Assembly (NCBI RefSeq): GCF_029946185.1
Contig: NZ_JAQSEA010000059.1
Span: 1 to 64,000 of the forward strand
Direction of reading: 5' to 3'
Origin: Prosthecobacter sp.
GTDB taxonomy: Bacteria > Verrucomicrobiota > Verrucomicrobiia > Verrucomicrobiales > Verrucomicrobiaceae
DNA length: 64,000 bases
The position numbers and the translations under genes were made by a program. Positions within the stretch are counted from its first letter, which is position 1, and every line of letters starts with the position of its first letter. The notes under the pieces were generated by a model, which was not told the DNA's origin, ran no database searches, and saw only the letters and a list, made by a program, of their open reading frames with translations. This document shows positions 7,286 to 21,844 of the stretch, piece after piece.

Positions 7286-8349
7286 CTCTGCGCCGCCGCA
7301 TCTTGTTTTACTATGCCGCCACGCTCAGCGTGTCGCTCGTCATCGTCGCGTTCTGGAGCTGGTTCGAATTCAACGAGCAGCGCGATGCGGCACTGCGCGG
7401 CGGTGCCGAGGCAGCCTTGAAGCACAACCCTCTCGTTGAAACAGTCGAAATCATTCTCCTGGGCGGCCTGCCCGCTCTGCTGCTAGGCATCATCGGCGGC
7501 AGCCTCCTCATGCGCCGCGCCCTGCGCCCCATCGAAGAACTGACCGAAGCCCTCGAAAAAACCACCGCCTCAAACCTCGCCGAACCCGTGGCACGCAGCG
7601 GCAACGGCGACGAGCTCGATCGCATGTCCGCTGTTTTCAACGGCATGAAAGAGCGCCTCGGCACCTCCTTCACCCAGGCACGCGAATTCACTCTGCACGC
7701 CTCACATGAGCTCAAAACTCCACTCACCATTCTCCACGGCACACTGGAACAAATGATGGGGGACACCACCACCCCGACGGCGCATCGGGAGCGCATCACT
7801 TCCATGTTGGAGGAAGTGCAGCGCCTCTCCAGCATCGTCGGTCAGCTCGCCTTCCTTGCCAAAGCCGACGCCGGCTTGTTGGAGACCCCCCATGGCACCG
7901 TGGCTCTGCACGATCTCGTGCGCGATCTCGTGGAAGACCTCACACTCCTCTCCGCCGCGCAAAATATCAGCATCACACTCGACGCATGCCAGTCCACACA
8001 TGTGAACGGAGATCGCATGCGCCTCCGCCAGCTTCTCCTTATTCTGGGCGACAATGCCGTGAAGCATAATCACAAATACGGCAGCATCACCCTCGCCCTG
8101 CATCAAGACGAAGCTCACGTCACCTTCCGTATCACCAATACCGGTCCGGCACTCCCGCCCGATTTGCGTTCACGTGTTTTCGAGCGCTTCCTGCGTGGCG
8201 ATGCCTCTCACAGCAGCACCGTCGAGGGCAGTGGTCTCGGCCTCAGCATCGCTGAATCCATCGCCAAATCCCATCGCGGCACTCTGGTTTTCGAAGTCAT
8301 TGAAGGCGACCGCACTCAGCTCACATTGAGCCTGCCTTCTGGGCATTAA
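7282..8349 (+). CDS. Membrane sensor histidine kinase
   Basis: This 355-residue kinase has two membrane helices (~8-26 and ~56-77) enclosing a periplasmic loop of only about 30 residues. A HAMP linker follows (RRALRPIEELTEALE to ~130), then the dimerisation domain with phospho-acceptor His142 in HASHELKTPLT, then a HATPase domain with N-box NAVKHNH, G1 NTGPALP and G2 GSGLGLSIA. It should phosphorylate the regulator encoded just upstream, with which it overlaps by four bases. The very short sensor loop suggests that the signal is read within or near the membrane, or by a partner, rather than by a large binding domain as in CusS. Confidence 0.92.
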   Translation: MTLRRRILFYYAATLSVSLVIVAFWSWFEFNEQRDAALRGGAEAALKHNPLVETVEIILLGGLPALLLGIIGGSLLMRRALRPIEELTEALEKTTASNLAEPVARSGNGDELDRMSAVFNGMKERLGTSFTQAREFTLHASHELKTPLTILHGTLEQMMGDTTTPTAHRERITSMLEEVQRLSSIVGQLAFLAKADAGLLETPHGTVALHDLVRDLVEDLTLLSAAQNISITLDACQSTHVNGDRMRLRQLLLILGDNAVKHNHKYGSITLALHQDEAHVTFRITNTGPALPPDLRSRVFERFLRGDASHSSTVEGSGLGLSIAESIAKSHRGTLVFEVIEGDRTQLTLSLPSGH

Positions 8350-8405
8350 TGACGGTTCTTTCATTGGTGATCGGTTCACAAAGTCGCTTTGTGACACCTG
8401 CCGTC

Positions 8406-9731
8406 ATGAAACTCACCTCGTTCCTCGTCCCCCTCGCGGCTGCTGCGCTTGCATCATGCGCACACTATCAGGCCCGCCCGCTCTCGGCGGAGGCCAGTTC
8501 TGCGGCGTTCGCCGGTCGTTCGCTGAATGATCCCGGCCTGCGGCAGTTTCTCACCGAACAAAAAGCCGCACAGGGCACCTGGGAGGTCAATCGCCTGTCC
8601 TTGGCCGCAGCCTATTTCCATCCCGATGTCACCCTCGCCCGCGCAGAAGCGGATGAAGTCATGGCCGCCATCAAAACCGCCAAACAACGGCCAAATCCCA
8701 TCTTCACCTTCGGCCCGCAGTATGCCAGCTTTCACCGCAACGCGATCACACCGTGGTTCCTCGCTGGCAACGTGTTCTATCAAATCGAAACCGCTGGCAA
8801 ACGCACACGCCGCACAGAGCAGGCGCTGGCTGCCGCAGAAGCCGCCAGATGGCGTGTCTCCTCCCGTGCCTGGGCTGCCCGCTCACGTGTCCGCATCGCC
8901 ATGCTGGAACTCCACAGCGCCCGCGAAAACATCCGCCTGCTGGAGACAGAGGGAAACCTCCACGATGATGCGATCAAGAAACTCACCGCGCAGATGGAAG
9001 CGGGCGCTGTATCGCCCTTTGAACTGACGCAAGCACGTCTGGCGCTGAACCGCACACGCCTCGCATTACAAGATGCACAACGTCTCGCCGCGACAGGCGA
9101 CGCCAAACTCGCTGCCGCCGTGGGCGTGCCGTTGTCAGCCTTGAAAAACATCACACTCGATTTCTCATCACTCACGCGTCTGCCTGCGCAAAGCATCAGC
9201 AGCAGCCGGCGTCTTGCCCTGACACAGCGCGCTGATCTAATGGCGCTGCTCGCCGATTATGCAGCCGCAGAGTCCGCGCTTCGCTTGGAATACGCCAAAC
9301 AGTACCCCGATGTGCGGCTCGGCCCCGGCTTCGATTACAACCAAGGTCAAAACCGCTGGCAGCTCGGTGTGAGCTTGGAACTTCCCATCAATGGCAATCG
9401 CGGCCCCATCGCGCAGGCGGAGGCCAAACGTAAGACTGCCGAAGCACGATTTCTCGCGCAGCAGGACACGATTCAAGGGGAGCTGAACATTGCACTCGCG
9501 GCTTATACAGCCTCACGCAAAAAAGCGGAGACCGCCGCCACCTTGTCGCAAGATGCCGTGGCTGCTGCGGGCACCACCAAACGCATGGTCGAAGCCGGCG
9601 AGCTTTCACCACTCGAACTCACCCGCCGTCAGATTGAAGCCAGCACCGCCAGTCTCGCCCGCATGGCCGCCGACATCGAGGCGCAGACCGCTGCCGGAGC
9701 GCTGGAAGATGCCATGCAGGCCCGCCTTTGA
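8406..9731 (+). CDS. TolC-family outer-membrane efflux lipoprotein
   Basis: This is a 441-residue outer-membrane channel subunit. The start at 8406 gives a lipoprotein signal with the lipobox LASC (mature Cys near residue 18). The body has two OEP repeats made of long coiled helices, such as ALAAAEAARWRVSSRAW and TLSQDAVAAAGTTKRMVEAG, each followed by the TolC-type phrase GAVSPFELTQARLAL or GELSPLELTRRQIEA. The repeated SP(F/L)ELT pattern marks the internal duplication typical of the family. It lies between the kinase and the adaptor gene and should form the outer exit of the tripartite pump. Confidence 0.92.
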   Translation: MKLTSFLVPLAAAALASCAHYQARPLSAEASSAAFAGRSLNDPGLRQFLTEQKAAQGTWEVNRLSLAAAYFHPDVTLARAEADEVMAAIKTAKQRPNPIFTFGPQYASFHRNAITPWFLAGNVFYQIETAGKRTRRTEQALAAAEAARWRVSSRAWAARSRVRIAMLELHSARENIRLLETEGNLHDDAIKKLTAQMEAGAVSPFELTQARLALNRTRLALQDAQRLAATGDAKLAAAVGVPLSALKNITLDFSSLTRLPAQSISSSRRLALTQRADLMALLADYAAAESALRLEYAKQYPDVRLGPGFDYNQGQNRWQLGVSLELPINGNRGPIAQAEAKRKTAEARFLAQQDTIQGELNIALAAYTASRKKAETAATLSQDAVAAAGTTKRMVEAGELSPLELTRRQIEASTASLARMAADIEAQTAAGALEDAMQARL

Positions 9732-9749
9732 TTTTCACCCACGCATACC

Positions 9750-10730
9750 ATGAAAACATTCGCCCCCATTGCTCTCCTGCTCGCAGTGAGTTCGCTCCAC
9801 GCCGCCGATTCAGGGGGTGCTGCACCCGCCGCCGTGACCAAAGAAGGCGATCTCGTCGTCATCACGCTCAAGCCCGACGCCGAGCAGCGTCTGCGGTTGA
9901 AAGTCGTACCCGTGGAAAAACGACGTGTGCCCGGCACGCGCCTCTTCTCAGGTGAAGTCGTTTATCCATTGGGCGGCGAAGGCAGCGGCGTCGCACCCGT
10001 GCTCGGTGGCACGCTGGATGAAGTGCTGCGTCTCGCCGATTTGCAAGCCGCTGCAGATGGTCGCGTTCTTCAAGCCAGGGTGCAGATCGATGCCGCGAAG
10101 ATTGCCGTCGAACGCGCACAAAAAGTACTCAATGCCGAGGCCGGCAGCGTTCGCTCCGTCGATGAAGCCAAGACCGCCCTTTCTCTCGCCGAAGGCACGA
10201 TGACCACGGCCAAAGCGCAACGCGACATCCTCGGCGATCCCGTGGGCAAAATGAGCGGCAACAAGCGCGCCTGGGTGCGTGTAGCGATCTACAGCGGCGA
10301 AATCAATCTCCTCGATGCCAAAGCACCCGCGAGCATTCGCACGCTGGGTTATGATGCCAAAAGCCAGAGCGCCGGGCCCGTCGCTGGTCCACCCACGGCC
10401 AATGCACTCACCAATACCGTGGACTGGTATTATCAACTTCCTGCCGCCAGCACTTTGCGCGCAGGTGAACGCATTGCCGTCGAGATTCCGACGCTGGCCA
10501 GTCAGGAAGAGCATCTCGTCATTCCATTCAACGCAGTGCTGCATGACATCAACGGTGGCCAGTGGGTCTACGCCCAGACTGCTGAGCACGTTTACACGCG
10601 AAAGCGCATTCAGGTCGCCCGCCTTGCCGGCACCGACGCAGTCCTGACCAGCGGTCCAGCCGCCGGCACCAAGATTGTGACCGATGGCTCGGCCGAGCTC
10701 TTTGGCACGGAATTCATGACCGGGAAATAA
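9750..10730 (+). CDS. Periplasmic adaptor (membrane-fusion) subunit of the RND pump
   Basis: This 326-residue secreted protein has a signal peptide ([18 protein letters not shown]). It shows the adaptor order: a strand region ([21 protein letters not shown]), a lipoyl/hairpin segment ([25 protein letters not shown]), a beta-barrel part ([13 protein letters not shown]) and a membrane-proximal end ([21 protein letters not shown]). It would link the inner-membrane pump to the TolC channel. It is somewhat shorter than CusB-like proteins. No Met-rich metal-binding N-terminus is visible, so a copper or silver role is not supported. The pump gene starts five bases downstream. Confidence 0.9.
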
Positions 10731-13855: not shown

Positions 13856-13930
13856 GCGCGGATAGCTCAGTGGTAGAGCGGCTCGCTTACACCGAGTTGG
13901 TCGGGGGTTCGAATCCCTCTCCGCGTACCA
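13856..13930 (+). tRNA. tRNA-Val (anticodon TAC)
   Basis: A full cloverleaf is readable. The acceptor stem GCGCGGA pairs with TCCGCGT, the D arm is GCTCAGTGGTAGAGC, the anticodon stem is GCTCG/CGAGT with loop CTTACAC (anticodon TAC), and the T arm contains GGTTCGAATCC. The 3' CCA is encoded (13928-13930). It lies 43 bases after the RND pump and 550 bases before the low-GC defence-type module. tRNA genes are common integration sites, but I found no copy of its 3' end on the far side. Confidence 0.95.
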
Positions 13931-14484
13931 TCTTCCGCCTCAAAAGAGGGGAAGACCAAAGAAAGCCCCTCAAACGGGATGCCTGCCTCGAATAGAACAC
14001 AGTTGCAGCGTGCGTTTTCGCCATCCCTCAAAGTGGATGGAAGAGTCCCCAAACCCAAAGCAAGGCAACCCCACCTGGATGGCGGAGCCATCCCAGCCTG
14101 TAGCGAGGGGTTGAGCGCAGCGACACCCCTCGTCCAAGACAAACACCCCACACCTGCCTTCGCATCGCGTAGCGATGCCAGCGCTTTCCGGGGAGAACTC
14201 ACCCGCTGGCCCACACTTATCAGGGCGGCAATAACTTAGGTGCGCATCACCCAAGGAATTATGAACGATTTGCCAGAGTGGGGGGGATCCCCTATGCGAG
14301 CACAATTGGTGATACGTTTTGCTCATCCCGCATGGTGCCATCACGGGGAATATGACTTTGGAGGGATTGGCGTCTCGGTACGAGGAACGGGCAGGTTAGA
14401 ATCCAATGCAGTATGCTTTAAACATGATGTCTGCCAGCACTTATGTCCTAAAGCACAGGTGCAATAATTGCGACCTGCTATTAT
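13931..14484. other. Intergenic region between tRNA-Val and the nuclease-helicase module
   Basis: Apart from the hairpin cluster at 14021-14178, I see no gene. The part from about 14240 to 14484 is less GC-rich than the left flank and may be the edge of an acquired segment. A short palindrome-like GGGGGGATCCCC occurs near 14281-14292. Confidence 0.4.
14021..14178. repeat. Cluster of four hairpins downstream of tRNA-Val
   Basis: Four stem-loops follow each other: 14021-14040 (CCATCC/GGATGG), 14077-14093 (GGATGGC/GCCATCC, loop GGA), 14104-14132 (CGAGGGG/CCCCTCG) and 14162-14178 (GCATCGC/GCGATGC, loop GTA). No open frame in the stretch looks real. The arrangement resembles a composite intergenic repeat or structured RNA rather than one terminator. 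Confidence 0.6.
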
Positions 14485-16320
14485 TTAAGCAGTAGTAATT
14501 TGGTTATCGTTGAACAACCCTTTTGCAATCAACTCCGCCCGTGTCGCTTCTGGCGCTGGTGTGAAGAAAAGAATTTTTAGATGCTGCTCAGCGCGAGAGA
14601 AGCACACATAGGCAAGTTTCCGTCCGCGTTCCTGTTGCCCCTCGGTTGGTTCACCAGCGATTCCCGGCGTTAGCAATTTCGAGAAGCTGTATTGGTTCCA
14701 ATTTGCCTCAACGTCATCAAAGACCACAAGGACATTCGGATACTCTTCCCCCTTCACCCCATGCTGTGTGCTGTATGGCGTGTTCTCTTCGATGAATTCT
14801 CGGTATGCAAAAAGCTCACTTGTCGGCATGACGAAAAAACCGTCCGCGAGCCAATCCCCCTTTTCTTCACTGTGCGCTTCGTCATCATATTCTTCGGCGC
14901 GAGGTGGCCTTGCAAGCTGCTCCGCAAGGCGATCCGACACACGTATTAGGTTGTTATCTCTACAATAGACGAGCGCGTCTTTGGTGGTCGCCGCATCCCA
15001 GATTCTAGCCAGATCCCCAAGTTGAGCTTTCGACTGATCGATCATATCTTTGAGTTTGCGGTTCGCGTTCGGGCCGTGCGGATCATATGCAGGGCTGTTA
15101 GTGCGCAAAATGTCTATGACCCGCCTGTTTGCTCCGTTGGCTGATGATTCAATGAGCGGGCAAATGACTTCGAGAAACGGCTTTAGGAGATGGTGTTCTC
15201 CTGCCTCATAATCATCCTGTGTGCGCTGCGACGCATATGGCCCGGTGAATAGCTGTTGCAGGCCAGAAAATTTCAAGCGTCGTGCGATCATCTGACGCAC
15301 TAGAAAGAGCCGAATGACCTCGGGGTTGTCTGCCCAGCCCCAGCCTTCAATCGCCTGGTCCATTGCAGCAAGCGCACGGTCTAGTTGGGCATCCGAGTAA
15401 CGCTTGCGCGGACCTTCGGGCGCTTCCGCTCTAACCAATCGTATCTCAACACTACCTTGCACGTTGGCGTTGGAGCCTGCCGCCACTTGCTCAACATCGG
15501 TTCGAAAGGCATTCAAGAACGCAATTACCTGCGGTGAGCAACGAAAATTCTCGACTTTCGTTATTGATAGCCCGCCCTCTGGAGGTGCGAAGTCGCCCGC
15601 TCTCCCTTCATAAATCTGCTGCCACGGATCACCGAAATACCCGACCAACGGCAAGCCAGCTGCTCCACAGGTTTGGTTTAGCCCTTCGACGATTGGCACG
15701 TAAGTGTCCTGCGCTTCATCGACAAAGATGAAGGGGTAGCGCACACCAATCAGGCGGCGAAAATTAGTTCGTTCGCGGAAAAGGTAGCCGGCAATCTCAA
15801 TAATGTCATCGTGGCTCAATTTGCCGTTCAGATAATCGCTAAACGCGACATCATCGTATGAAAAATCTGTTACATCAGGCAGTCCAGCCAGTTCTTTCTC
15901 AAGTCTGGCAACTTTCTCTCGCGCCTTGCGCGCTGTTTTGGTGTCCTTGCCGTTATCGTCTTCCGCTGCTTTGGCGATCAAAGCAGGTAAGCGAGCATTT
16001 TGTAGTGCCTCTCGAATATCGCGCTGAAAACGGCTGATCTCGCTCCACAAGAAGCTATGCAGTGTCGACACATAATAGAGGTCATCAAAACCTAGCCTTA
16101 GCCGAATGACTTCGACAGCTCGATTGGTGAACGTGATGCAGGCGATGCGCTGTCCGTTTTGGCGCAGCGTCGCTCCTTGCGTTGCTCGAATTTCCGCAAG
16201 TGCGTCAACAAGTGAGGTGGTTTTACCGGAACCAGCACCCGCGATCAGCGCGAAACTGCGATGCGTGGCAAGGCACTCTCGAACGGCTTGATCTGCAACA
16301 GTTTGAACGCGGTCAGGCAT
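14485..16320 (-). CDS. UvrD/Rep-like superfamily 1 helicase (GajB-like)
   Basis: This is a 611-residue SF1 helicase. Visible motifs are Q-like residues at the N-terminus, Walker A AGAGSGKTTSL (~27-37), motif Ia ITFTNRAVEVIR, TLHSFLW, Walker B FIFVDEAQDTY, motif III GDPWQQIY, motif IV ENFRCSPQVI, motif V HGVKGEEYPNVLVV and motif VI YVCFSRAEQHLK. The start at 16320 (MPDRVQTV) sits two bases after the stop of the OLD-family gene, so they are co-transcribed. A longer frame would start inside that gene. Such a helicase paired with a class 2 OLD nuclease is the Gabija arrangement. It is longer than GajB of Bacillus cereus (about 494 residues). Lower GC than its neighbours suggests transfer. Confidence 0.88.
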   Translation of the reverse strand: MPDRVQTVADQAVRECLATHRSFALIAGAGSGKTTSLVDALAEIRATQGATLRQNGQRIACITFTNRAVEVIRLRLGFDDLYYVSTLHSFLWSEISRFQRDIREALQNARLPALIAKAAEDDNGKDTKTARKAREKVARLEKELAGLPDVTDFSYDDVAFSDYLNGKLSHDDIIEIAGYLFRERTNFRRLIGVRYPFIFVDEAQDTYVPIVEGLNQTCGAAGLPLVGYFGDPWQQIYEGRAGDFAPPEGGLSITKVENFRCSPQVIAFLNAFRTDVEQVAAGSNANVQGSVEIRLVRAEAPEGPRKRYSDAQLDRALAAMDQAIEGWGWADNPEVIRLFLVRQMIARRLKFSGLQQLFTGPYASQRTQDDYEAGEHHLLKPFLEVICPLIESSANGANRRVIDILRTNSPAYDPHGPNANRKLKDMIDQSKAQLGDLARIWDAATTKDALVYCRDNNLIRVSDRLAEQLARPPRAEEYDDEAHSEEKGDWLADGFFVMPTSELFAYREFIEENTPYSTQHGVKGEEYPNVLVVFDDVEANWNQYSFSKLLTPGIAGEPTEGQQERGRKLAYVCFSRAEQHLKILFFTPAPEATRAELIAKGLFNDNQITTA

Positions 16321-16322
16321 AT

Positions 16323-18392
16323 CTATGGTTGCTCGGCTGGGACAGGTGGATAGAGCCGATTTTCGAGCCACGCAAGTCCTTCCGCGATGTATGCTGGCAC
16401 TTGCCAGTTAGCCTCACTCGCCAGCACGTCCATTGCGAAGTCGGTTTTCTTGAAGCTGCTAGATTTGATGTGCTCGTATATGGAGTTATATGCTTCACCG
16501 AGCCCTTCTGGAATGGTAATATTGAGGCTTAGTGTTCCGTCACGCAAGCGCGCGAAGTTTTGGTAGGCGAACGCCTCCTCCAAAGTGCGCGGTCGCATGT
16601 TCATGGTAGCACCACCGTCGGTGACGGTGATGTCTTGTTGGAACGTGATATATCGACCTCGTTCTGCTGAGTGCTTTTGATCGGGCGTAATGCACATCAA
16701 TTCGTCAACGGAATTCACCTCAAGCAAATGTTTAAGGGATGCATTTGAAGTGAGCGCGCCCGGTGTGTCAGCACGGCAGGCTGGATGCCTTCCGGTAGGA
16801 TCAACCGAATCAAGGTCGGTCACAATGAGATACGGGATGCATAGGAAAGACAGCAATTCATCGAAGCGGTGTGCATATGCACCGCCGATTTCCAACACGG
16901 TGAGATACGACGCCCGCAATCGGTTAGCCGCCTTGTCTATCATTGTCGGCATCAGCAGCTTTTCCACCGAACCTTCAACCAGCACGGCGGCATCAGCGAA
17001 AAATAGGTCACAATGGGTCAGACGAAGGTAGCGTTTGAGGAACGCCAACGCTTCTTCCGGAGTTACCGGCTGATCGGCGATTTCAACGGCGGTGGGCTGG
17101 AAATCTCGTAGGCTGTGAACCTGCGTTGCATTCAATATTCTTGCCGGGTCAGGAGCTTCACCGTTGAGGTGGCAGCGCCTGAAATAGCGAACTTTGCCAA
17201 ACTCGGTGGCATCCAAAATGTGTGAAGAATGGGTGGTTACGATAAGCTGCGGAATCCAATCACCGGCTTCTTCGGCCTCAGCTGATTGCTGAATAACATC
17301 CCAGATATTAGTGATGAAGGTCTGCTGCACCTGTGCATGCAAATGCACCTCCGGCTCTTCGATAAAGATGATCTGGCAGAGCGGGCGGTTTTGAGAAGTG
17401 CGCACCCATTGGGAATGATAGTGCTTCGCCTGAATTGCCATGTAGATGAGATTTTTGAAGCCGAGACCGTTATATAGTTCCGGCAGTTCATGCCCACGGT
17501 AGACATCCACGTAGAGCAGATCTGTGTTGCCGCTCAATGCCGTCTCTGGGTTAAGAGTGGAGACAATTCTCAGCTCGCGGTCATTGACCGATGGGACTCC
17601 AATCCCTTTGATTACACCCATGATCCCAGCGAACTGTTTTGCATAGTGGTCCGTGAGTTGACGGTTATTTTCGTTGATAACGCGGTGTGCATCTTCAGCC
17701 ACTTCCGGTCGTTCAAGGTTCTTCTGATAAAACCCAGCAAAGGCACGAGATAGCCTGTTGCTGCGATTCTCCTCATCGTCGTCGATGTTTCTCTGGGCAC
17801 CAACAAAATCGATGCGAACCAGACTTTGAAGAAGGTTTCTGCCCTCATCCTTGTCCAAAGTCGCGGCTGTTACGCCTGCCTCGGTAGCTTCAAGCGACGC
17901 ATAAGTGATTTCAAAATGTCGATTTAGCTCTCTGTCGTCAGAGAGAAAGGCAGAAAGCGTCTTTTCTGGGGCCTCTTCGCCTGCTTGGGGGTAGGCGGTA
18001 AGATACGCTTCGCGTAGTTTGGCAGGATTAGGGGTTGCATAGCGCAGCCGAACGCCTAGCCGTTCAAAATTATCTGACAGGTTGGGGAGTAGCGTGAAGG
18101 CTCGTCCAAACTCGATGGAGTTAGGATCGACCTTAAACCAAATGTCCAGCTCTATTGAAGGCAGCGCATCTGCCTCTCCCGTTACTCCAAAATCATCAAA
18201 CTCAGGAATTCGGGCGACGGAAAAATCGTAGATGCGAAACTTCCGTTGTCCGAGAAAGCATCGAAAAATTGCAGTCGCAGAGGTCTTGCCGCTGTTGTTA
18301 GGCCCAACGAAGACCGTTTCTCGGTCTTCTATCGCTGCCGATACATTTTCGAGACGGCGGAAATTCCGGATTTCGATGCGGTCAATTTTCAT
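16323..18392 (-). CDS. OLD-family ATPase/TOPRIM endonuclease (GajA-like)
   Basis: This 689-residue protein has an ABC-type ATPase domain: Walker A GPNNSGKT at 30-37, Walker B IIFIEEPEVHLHAQ at ~341-354, and the H-loop THSSHILDA at ~387-395. A C-terminal TOPRIM nuclease domain follows, with the glutamate in VLVEGSVEKLL (E473) and the metal-binding pair D526/D528 in IVTDLD. The RTLEEAF segment near 602 matches the class 2 OLD tail. In Gabija, GajA cuts specific DNA when nucleotide pools fall and works with GajB. The domains fit, but the system here is assigned by architecture, and GajA of the type strain is shorter (about 578 residues). Confidence 0.88.
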   Translation of the reverse strand: MKIDRIEIRNFRRLENVSAAIEDRETVFVGPNNSGKTSATAIFRCFLGQRKFRIYDFSVARIPEFDDFGVTGEADALPSIELDIWFKVDPNSIEFGRAFTLLPNLSDNFERLGVRLRYATPNPAKLREAYLTAYPQAGEEAPEKTLSAFLSDDRELNRHFEITYASLEATEAGVTAATLDKDEGRNLLQSLVRIDFVGAQRNIDDDEENRSNRLSRAFAGFYQKNLERPEVAEDAHRVINENNRQLTDHYAKQFAGIMGVIKGIGVPSVNDRELRIVSTLNPETALSGNTDLLYVDVYRGHELPELYNGLGFKNLIYMAIQAKHYHSQWVRTSQNRPLCQIIFIEEPEVHLHAQVQQTFITNIWDVIQQSAEAEEAGDWIPQLIVTTHSSHILDATEFGKVRYFRRCHLNGEAPDPARILNATQVHSLRDFQPTAVEIADQPVTPEEALAFLKRYLRLTHCDLFFADAAVLVEGSVEKLLMPTMIDKAANRLRASYLTVLEIGGAYAHRFDELLSFLCIPYLIVTDLDSVDPTGRHPACRADTPGALTSNASLKHLLEVNSVDELMCITPDQKHSAERGRYITFQQDITVTDGGATMNMRPRTLEEAFAYQNFARLRDGTLSLNITIPEGLGEAYNSIYEHIKSSSFKKTDFAMDVLASEANWQVPAYIAEGLAWLENRLYPPVPAEQP

Positions 18393-18619
18393 GCGGGTTT
18401 GTATCCGGCTGGTTTGATCCTTGGATATAAATCTCTAGGGTCATCCCCCGCAAAGGGACATTTCGGGATGTGGTTTCAGCACTCATGCGGCGGGCAGTGT
18501 CTGTACCTGAGGACGGTTCGGGATTTGCTGACGATCCAGCGGAGGGTGGAGTGGGAGTCGCATTGCTCTTCATTGATTCGCTAAGATCGGCTCAATCTTT
18601 CATAATTCATCCTTCATAA
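18393..18619. other. Region upstream of the nuclease-helicase module
   Basis: This 227-base gap should hold the promoter of the minus-strand nuclease gene. Near 18594-18621 two near-identical copies of a short TTCATAATTCATC-like direct repeat occur, just beside the stop of the next gene. No tRNA-derived attachment copy is visible. No gene is supported. Confidence 0.35.
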
Positions 18620-21600
18620 TTACCTCCCCACCCGCATCCACTTCCGCGCCTCCATCCCGCTCGCGAGCTCCTTCACCCGCACTTCCCAGCTGCCCGGATC
18701 CTCATTCGGCGCCAGGTCCAGCTTGATTTCAACGATGCCATTCTCGGCCGCATAAAACCCGCTCCCTTCCGCCGCCTTCCCATTCGCATCACGAACATCC
18801 ACGCGCACCGGAATCACCGCCTTGGTCGGCGCCTCCTGGGTGGTCGTAATGCTCACCGCAATCTTCGCGCTGTTCCCCACCACCGCGTTCTCCGGCACCT
18901 CCAGTTTCAATCCCAGCAGCGGCTTCGGCAGCACCATGAAGATGCGCCCATCACAAGGCCCCAGATCCACCGGCCAGCTCATCACCCCATCGGCGCTGCG
19001 CTTCGGCACAATGAACTGCGTACCCGTCAGCTCATACACATTCGCCGATTCCACCTTCAAGCTCACCACCCCGCTCGATGGCACCCCATTTTCCATCACC
19101 AGCCCATGCTGCCCCACGTAGCTGCCAAACTCGCGCTTGTCGTTCATCACAAACACATAGGTCGCATCGCCAAACTTCCGCGTGCGCACAATGATCTCAG
19201 CATTGTCACACATCGCCTTCTGCGGCAGCGCGAACCCGCCCACAGTCCCCGCCATTTCCAGCACCTTCGCCTTGTCCACATCCGCCTTCTTCACCCGCTT
19301 GAAACTCGGCAATAGGAAATCCGCCTTCAGCGCCGGACACAGAAACTCATCCGCCACAATCTTCCCACCCTTCTTCTGCCAGTCCTGAATCCGCGTCACC
19401 ACCGACTTCGTCAGCACATCGCAATACGGCATGACCAGCACCTTGCGACCACTCAGCCCATTCTTGAGCAGTGTCTCCTCATACATAATGTCCGTCTGCA
19501 CATGCGCATGCTGCAGCGCCAGCCACACATCCGCCGCCCAGTCCGTGTTGTTCCCGTAGCTGCCGCGATGCGCAAACATCTGCGACGTAAAACTCTCCAA
19601 AAACGCCACCTCACTCCGCTCATCCGGAATCGCCATCAGCGTCGGCCCCAGCGGCTCGATCACATCATGCAGCAACTGCTTGAGCACCGGCGCCGTGTTC
19701 GAATTCGTGTATCGATACCCCCCCGGACTCCCCGTCGGCACCAGCGACTGCCACCCATGGTACATGATGCCCTGAATCGGCCGCGAGATCTTCGTCCACA
19801 GCGCCTCCTTCAAATGCATCGGCGCAATCGTGATATACGCCGCCTCCGGATCCTGATCCTGCCACGCCACCACCTCACCCGGCGCCTTGCTGCCAATCGG
19901 TGCCGTTTGTGAGCGATACCAGATCAACTGCGTCATCTTCATCACCCGCTGGTTCCTGCCCGTCGCCGCACTCATCGCAAAGAGCTGATCCGCGCACATT
20001 CCAATCTTCTGCGGATCAGGATAGGTGTAGGTCCAGTGCGAGATCACATCCACCCCACCACCCGCGCCGCCAATGCTCGGCTGCCGCACCGCCGGATCAA
20101 AAAACGTCCACACCTTGCTGCTCTTCACCCCCTTGTGCAGCGCCGTATGCAGCCCATTCCAGCCATCCCCAACCGTCCAGAACCAGCGCAAGTATTTCAA
20201 AATCGGATGATCATCCGCAATCACCCGATCCACCGGAAAATCCTTCATCTTCATCCAGTCCACCCCCCACTTTGCCGACACCTCCGCAGGAATCTCCATA
20301 TTCGCAAACTTCCGGTAAGCCTCCACATCCACCGCATTAAAACTCACCTGGCTGCTGTCCCGCACCTCCGAATCAATCAACGCCGTCGTGAACGCCGGAT
20401 GATCCCCATAAGCCTTCGCCACACTCATCCCCACCACCTGAAAGAAAGAAGCGAAATCCGGCAGCGACGCACAGATGTCCTGCCGCGCATAAGGTTTCCC
20501 ATCCCGCCCCACCCGCAGATTTTTCGCCTCCGACTCCAGCACACCCGCCGGCGACAAACTCGCAATGACTTCAAGCCCATTCGCCAGCGCCTCATCCAGC
20601 ATCGCCCGGTTCTTCACAATCACCTCCGGCTTCGCCGGCGGCACCACCTTCTTCTGCGCCCACATCTCACCATAGTCCGCTCCCAATCCAATGAAGTGCG
20701 TGAAACCGAGATCCTTCAAACGCGCGATCTCTTCCCCGCTGGCACCCCACATGATCACCGGCATGCGTTCCGGCACCCGCGGTACCAGTTTCAGCATGGC
20801 TGACTGCTCCGTTCCATAATCACCCACCTCAAACCTCGCCCGCAATTCATACTCATCCGCCTTGAGCGCCGTATTGAAAACATACTTGGCCGTGAAACTC
20901 TTCCCCATTGCCAAATCCGACACAAGAAACTCCTCCGTTGTCCCACCCAGGCTCACCTTCAGCTTCGCCGCTTTCAGCACCTCACGTCGCAAATTAGTGC
21001 AAACGATCTCCACTGCCTTCGCAGTCTCCATCCGCCGCCACACACTTCGTCCTGCCACAATCTGCATCGAAACGCGCTCAAAGCTCAGCACCCCCTCGCA
21101 AACACGCACCTCATCAATCAGCCCCGGAAACCCACCATAATTGCTGCCCAGCCGGTCCCCGATGCTCAGCGCTTTCGTCCCCGGCGTCATATTGCCATAT
21201 CCTGCCAAAATGGAACCACCTGCAGCCACCCCGTTCCGATAAAACTTCCCCTCACCCGCACCATCATAAGTGAATGCCACATGCTGCCAAACGTCCGCCT
21301 CCAGCTTGAACGGCAGCGAATAAATCGTCTTCGACTCCGCCCCAAATCCAAGAGTTACCCACATTCGCCTCAATCCGCCTTTATCTGCATCACCTAGCTG
21401 CCACTGGTAGTCCGTGTGATCGACATACTTCTTGTCCAGCAGGAAGCAGCGCAGCTTCGGTTCAAACTCCGCCTTCGGCTTGATCCACATCTCCAGCGTG
21501 AACGCCCCCTTCACCGGCTTCACCGCCACCACTGCCGCATGCCGTTTGTCATCCACCGGAAATCCCGGAAACGACTCCAAAGCCCCGCCAAATTTGCCTT

Positions 21601-21790
21601 TCGGATTCAACACCGCTCCATGCAGTGCCACATCCTGCGACTCCCCATCAAAATTCCAATACCCCAGCACGTGGGGTCCAGTGGCATCTTCCTTCGCATA
21701 ACCCGTCTCCCAGGTTTCTTGTAGCGCAGCCTGAGCAACCCATGGAAAACAAAGTCCTAACAGGAGAAGAAAGCGAACGGTTTGGAACAT
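18620..21790 (-). CDS. Large secreted LamG-domain, glycosidase-like protein
   Basis: This is a ~1056-residue exported protein. The start at 21790 gives the signal peptide MFQTVRFLLLLGLCFPWVA. Residues ~30-230 form a LamG/concanavalin-like domain (HVLGYWNFDGESQD, AFTLEMWIKPK, WQHVAFTYDGAGEGKFYRNG, GLIDEVRVCEGVLS). The middle looks like a TIM-barrel glycoside-hydrolase fold of the beta-galactosidase type (ARLKDLGFTHFIGLGADYGE, TALIDSEVRDSS, MYHGWQSL). A trimerisation-like/Rossmann segment follows (KVLVMPYCDVLTKSV), then a beta-sandwich C-terminus. It probably binds and processes polysaccharide outside the cell. The exact GH family is unassigned, and the acid residue in DSEVRDS is only a candidate catalyst. 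Confidence 0.75.
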   Translation of the reverse strand: MFQTVRFLLLLGLCFPWVAQAALQETWETGYAKEDATGPHVLGYWNFDGESQDVALHGAVLNPKGKFGGALESFPGFPVDDKRHAAVVAVKPVKGAFTLEMWIKPKAEFEPKLRCFLLDKKYVDHTDYQWQLGDADKGGLRRMWVTLGFGAESKTIYSLPFKLEADVWQHVAFTYDGAGEGKFYRNGVAAGGSILAGYGNMTPGTKALSIGDRLGSNYGGFPGLIDEVRVCEGVLSFERVSMQIVAGRSVWRRMETAKAVEIVCTNLRREVLKAAKLKVSLGGTTEEFLVSDLAMGKSFTAKYVFNTALKADEYELRARFEVGDYGTEQSAMLKLVPRVPERMPVIMWGASGEEIARLKDLGFTHFIGLGADYGEMWAQKKVVPPAKPEVIVKNRAMLDEALANGLEVIASLSPAGVLESEAKNLRVGRDGKPYARQDICASLPDFASFFQVVGMSVAKAYGDHPAFTTALIDSEVRDSSQVSFNAVDVEAYRKFANMEIPAEVSAKWGVDWMKMKDFPVDRVIADDHPILKYLRWFWTVGDGWNGLHTALHKGVKSSKVWTFFDPAVRQPSIGGAGGGVDVISHWTYTYPDPQKIGMCADQLFAMSAATGRNQRVMKMTQLIWYRSQTAPIGSKAPGEVVAWQDQDPEAAYITIAPMHLKEALWTKISRPIQGIMYHGWQSLVPTGSPGGYRYTNSNTAPVLKQLLHDVIEPLGPTLMAIPDERSEVAFLESFTSQMFAHRGSYGNNTDWAADVWLALQHAHVQTDIMYEETLLKNGLSGRKVLVMPYCDVLTKSVVTRIQDWQKKGGKIVADEFLCPALKADFLLPSFKRVKKADVDKAKVLEMAGTVGGFALPQKAMCDNAEIIVRTRKFGDATYVFVMNDKREFGSYVGQHGLVMENGVPSSGVVSLKVESANVYELTGTQFIVPKRSADGVMSWPVDLGPCDGRIFMVLPKPLLGLKLEVPENAVVGNSAKIAVSITTTQEAPTKAVIPVRVDVRDANGKAAEGSGFYAAENGIVEIKLDLAPNEDPGSWEVRVKELASGMEARKWMRVGR

Positions 21791-21844
21791 AGATGTCTCA
21801 TACGAGATCGAGCCCCCGGTTCGCACAACGAACGCCGAATCAAT

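Follow-up and report, generated by a model that had tools for sequence, protein, structure and literature searches.

A very probable case of horizontal acquisition: a two-gene Gabija operon of the long GajA/GajB lineage at a tRNA-Val integration hotspot in Prosthecobacter

The locus examined here raises the question of whether an OLD-type nuclease gene followed by a helicase gene constitutes a Gabija anti-phage system, and whether it reached this genome by transfer. It lies in a 64,000-nucleotide stretch of a Prosthecobacter genome (assembly GCF_029946185.1, contig NZ_JAQSEA010000059.1, positions 1 to 64,000), hereafter the window, the relevant features of which are collected in Table 1. Our analysis indicates that it is very probably a two-gene Gabija anti-phage operon of a long GajA/GajB lineage, obtained horizontally and situated at an integration hotspot, the 3' end of tRNA-Val(TAC). 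It would thus represent a well-bounded case in which Gabija crossed phyla and entered a tRNA hotspot in an environmental genus. Sister genomes show empty, scarred, and occupied versions of one tRNA-Val site, and the pair also draws attention to a long Gabija lineage that is conserved. The understanding of the Gabija system itself is unchanged, the window pair being an ordinary member of the family.

Table 1. Features at the Gabija locus (positions in the window)
Feature	Position	Strand	Remarks
tRNA-Val (TAC)	13856..13930	+	ARAGORN; 3' end faces the module
Dispersed ~110-bp intergenic repeat	14070..14185	.	Native to the genus; on the left side of the acquired DNA
Acquired stretch, approximate	14186..18585	.	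Low GC; both genes with short flanking segments; relatives lack it
gajB	14485..16320	-	UvrD/Rep-like SF1 helicase, 611 aa
gajA	16323..18392	-	Class 2 OLD nuclease, 689 aa; AAA_15 ATPase 1-392 and OLD-like TOPRIM 464-528
LamG-domain protein	18620-21826		Right of the module; common to most genus members

The identity of the pair is established by profile matches over the full length of both proteins. GajA matched the PADLOC GajA profile PDLC00093 over residues 1-682 (673 bits, E 2e-202), and GajB matched the GajB profile PDLC00143 over residues 3-610 (594 bits, E 1e-178). The preliminary description, which had named the pair GajA and GajB from the sequence, thus came through the profile search, and the coordinates, the gajA-gajB order, and the 2-nt spacing it had given were confirmed. 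The corresponding Pfam families are PF13175 and PF20469 for the two GajA domains in Table 1 and PF00580 (UvrD-helicase) for GajB; the NCBIfam profiles gave no Gabija-named match for either protein. Among PDB sequences, the top matches were the Endonuclease GajA of the solved Bacillus cereus Gabija complexes and B. cereus GajB, respectively. Similarity to these two proteins is low (phmmer E 1e-9 for GajA and 4e-6 for GajB) and falls mostly in motif regions. Both genes are intact, and the layout is shared by homologous loci: wherever enough sequence was available, gajB lies directly 3' of gajA with a gap of -8 to +18 nt, except at L031, where no gajB was found after gajA; at L025, gajB is present after gajA but truncated.

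The catalytic motifs are conserved as well. In B. cereus GajA, the class 2 TOPRIM active site comprises E379, G409, and D432/D434 (PMC10781630), and class 2 OLD proteins are GajA proteins adjoining a UvrD-like helicase (PMC10568477). E473 and D526/D528 of the window GajA align with E379 and D432/D434, and all three residues are invariant in 26 GajA homologues; G503/G504, aligned to the LEVGG motif, are likewise invariant. The Walker A motif (GPNNSGKT, residues 30-37) is near-invariant from G30 to T37 in the same 26 sequences, whereas IEEPEVHLH (residues 344-352), tested as Walker B, and an FKKT motif at the C-terminus are invariant. The Walker A and TOPRIM residues pointed out in the earlier reading are confirmed. 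Among 23 GajB homologues, no variation occurs in the helicase motifs AGAGxGKT, DEAQDT, and STQHGVKGE.

The Gabija system of B. cereus VD045 (PDB 8sm3, 8jqb) shares with the window pair its gene order, its combination of an OLD ATPase-TOPRIM protein with a UvrD-like helicase, and its Walker A and TOPRIM E..G..DxD motifs, while its proteins show only distant sequence similarity and are each about 110 residues shorter than those of the window. The lengths had been described as atypical, which holds relative to the B. cereus type proteins and fails as a mark of anything unusual. Full-length GajA homologues measure 677-752 aa (n=39), and 34 of 35 GajB homologues measure 611-615 aa, a single 588-aa protein extending the whole range to 588-615. 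The best PADLOC profiles (PDLC00093, 736 aa; PDLC00143, 632 aa) are similarly long, in line with the window proteins and with no notable difference from them. Unusual length was accordingly rejected as a novelty: these values are the norm in the lineage, and the long form is a common lineage, beside which the type proteins from B. cereus are short. A search for a solved structure of the long lineage, and for a report of phage protection by it, found neither.

AlphaFold models were built from the 26 GajA and 23 GajB homologues. They added little because their confidence was moderate (pLDDT 76 for GajA and 84 for GajB). The best Foldseek matches of the GajA model were solved GajA structures (E 1e-18), although with a TM-score of only about 0.4 at this pLDDT. 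For the GajB model, UvrD/Rep matches ranked above B. cereus GajB, which hints that the long GajB may be a fuller helicase. In known systems, GajA and GajB act as a complex: DNA is cut by the TOPRIM domain, with access governed by the ATPase and the helicase (PMC10781630; PMC10568477). A 2025 preprint proposes that the Gabija system of Pseudomonas aeruginosa PA14 acts on linear DNA without bound RecBCD and prevents the phage genome from circularising (PMC12407980). By analogy, GajA of the window (ABC ATPase and TOPRIM nuclease) would assemble with the SF1 helicase GajB into a complex that cuts invading linear phage DNA or blocks its circularisation. As the structurally studied systems are only remote relatives of this lineage, we infer this detailed biochemistry, including formation of the 4:4 GajA-GajB complex of characterised Gabija, DNA nicking or cleavage, trigger, and phage protection. 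The long lineage spans phyla and has little beyond the catalytic motifs in common with B. cereus Gabija; that it differs in phage-DNA recognition or trigger, perhaps because its GajB is a fuller Rep/UvrD-like protein in place of the reduced B. cereus form, is a tentative and rather doubtful suggestion.

The base content of the locus argues for a foreign origin. GC is 0.523 for positions 14006-18585 and 0.589 for the rest of the window, and windowed GC is 0.51-0.53 over 14-18.5 kb and mostly 0.57-0.62 outside. The lowest-GC 4.58-kb stretch of the entire 64 kb starts at 14212 (0.521), and the next non-overlapping one reaches 0.570. GC3 is 0.53-0.54 in the two genes, as opposed to 0.66-0.75 in the flanking genes, so the AT-rich third codon positions already remarked upon are real. 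The distance from tRNA-Val to gajB is 554 bp, close to the approximately 550 bases first estimated. The insert can be bounded because genome G021, which lacks the pair at this site, aligns with the window both to the left (91%) and to the right (89%) of the module: similarity to empty-site relatives ends at about 14005 and resumes at about 18595. The ~110-bp segment on the left has 8 matches in its own genome, 27 in G013, and 10-12 in G001/G002. Being a dispersed repeat of the genus, it is set apart from the insert, and the acquired stretch is therefore placed as in Table 1. A phmmer search of the window ORFs found no integrase, the tRNA-Val 3' end is not repeated in the window down to 13 nt, and terminal repeats bounding the insert were sought and not found. 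As neither an integrase nor a second tRNA copy is present in the window, the module is cargo or a remnant rather than a complete element; gajAB would thus be cargo left after loss of the element's ends, or would have arrived by recombination.

Comparison of the tRNA-Val locus among relatives, which had been suggested as a check, revealed the gajAB-less site directly in several of them. The distance from the tRNA-Val 3' end to the 3' end of the LamG gene, with no gajAB between, is about 16 bp in G011, 28 bp in G032 and G017, 262 bp in G021, 309 bp in G028, and 429 bp in G012. In G012, the site carries a second copy of the tRNA-Val 3' half, which is a typical integration scar. In G023, a mobile element occupies the site (L089:1-12750), with a tRNA 3'-end copy as its terminus; its genes encode a TraG-like coupling protein, two different tyrosine integrases, and a MobA/MobL relaxase. 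The attL half of this element was not found in the 38 kb to the left, where only a different 73-nt tRNA-Val occurs on the other strand. In G008, a 5.2-kb cassette, described below, lies at the site. The tRNA-Val 3' end is an integration site used repeatedly in the genus.

The distribution of the pair is sporadic and extends far beyond the genus. One scan of GTDB species genomes returned 38 loci at 54-79% identity in Pseudomonadota, Planctomycetota, Kiritimatiellota, Thermodesulfobacteriota, Acidobacteriota, Myxococcota, Actinomycetota, and Verrucomicrobiota. Within the genus, a GajA-GajB pair was present in one of 34 genus-mates (G019), 38% identical at its best stretch and located in a region without tRNA genes; orthologues are thus not widespread among close relatives, and the transfer first proposed from base content and the tRNA gene stands. 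The weak, partial matches to GajA in G001, G015, and G018 probably represent fragments or OLD-like proteins of another kind; those of G001 and G018 have no GajB match beside them. In both the GajA and GajB trees, the window proteins group with those of two MAGs, one of Rhodobacteraceae and one of Phycisphaerales, apart from the Verrucomicrobiaceae copy L012; the joining fork has support of 100/100 for GajB and, below full, 94/77 for GajA. Conjugative plasmids carry relatives of gajAB (52% in Phaeobacter, for example), the GajA relatives among phage records are all distant (25-29% identity), and IMG/VR contributed one contig with a 63% partial match. A search of E. coli genomes for the pair, with a Citrobacter homologue as the query, gave no match.

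The nearest homologue, L006, is on contig JABURR010000061.1 of the Rhodobacteraceae MAG Bin_6 (GajA 79%, GajB 82% identity). It has the same protein lengths, the same 2-nt gap, a low GC (0.52 within a host of 0.61-0.66), and a tRNA 3' end facing gajB, as in the window. DNA similarity between the two is confined to the gene pair. Unlike the window pair, that of L006 lies in an 8.3-kb element (L006:3842-12210) between two exact 58-bp direct repeats of a tRNA-Thr 3' region, with a tyrosine integrase adjoining one repeat. Such an integrase element is a plausible vehicle for these modules, and horizontal acquisition of gajAB is strongly supported.

Other readings of the pair were weighed against this evidence. 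An OLD nuclease and a helicase could serve DNA repair or the maintenance of a plasmid or element, the GajAB name merely reflecting broad PADLOC clusters. The low similarity to tested Gabija proteins, the closer resemblance of the GajB model to UvrD/Rep than to B. cereus GajB, and a Phaeobacter plasmid (L122:8088-14064), where genes for a DNA-repair exonuclease and a large AAA ATPase (SbcCD-like) come after the pair, can be read in this way; the arrangement there is possibly an extended operon. However, the sporadic distribution, the presence on plasmids and integrative elements, and the low GC fit accessory defence rather than housekeeping repair, and the long profiles belong to the Gabija set, which leaves a repair or maintenance role improbable. 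A fragment of another OLD-based system is scarcely credible. PARIS AriA, the retron Eco8 effector, and Septu PtuA have a related ABC ATPase (with TOPRIM in some), and the AriA profile scored 170 bits and the Eco8 and PtuA NCBIfam profiles about 40 bits. Yet these matches are confined to short motifs or, at most, the ATPase half, the NCBIfam scores fall far short of their cut-offs of 250-500, and the partner is a UvrD-like helicase instead of AriB, a reverse transcriptase, or the HNH protein PtuB. The full-length GajA and GajB matches contradict this reading, and all three identities were rejected for their partial, weak matches and wrong partners.

Vertical inheritance, in which the pair would be ancestral in the genus and lost in relatives while the base content is a local quirk, is very improbable. 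Several genomes are incomplete, and the distant pair in G019 could be taken as a trace of such an ancestor, but that pair shares 38% identity and is at another locus. In addition, contiguous gajAB-less sites occur in relatives with 77-91% identical flanks, and the tree neighbours of the window proteins belong to other phyla. A horizontally acquired Gabija operon accordingly remains the preferred reading.

Two further gene groups were observed beside tRNA-Val in sister genomes. G008 carries a 5.2-kb cassette (L091:6963-12121), which may be a small biosynthetic cluster, with an AMP-binding enzyme, a PLP-dependent decarboxylase, and further ORFs resembling a methyltransferase and an acyl-carrier protein. 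Between cusA and tRNA-Val, G021 encodes a 1367-aa ORF (L084:3360-7463, minus strand) in which VipA and VipB sheath domains (type VI) are fused to a C-terminal TIR domain, neighboured by a MoxR-like AAA ATPase (7460-8536) and a DUF4062/VMAP-C-like protein (8568-10301). PADLOC gave only a weak TIR match for this ORF, and its VipA/VipB and TIR parts match different loci in other searched genomes of the phylum.
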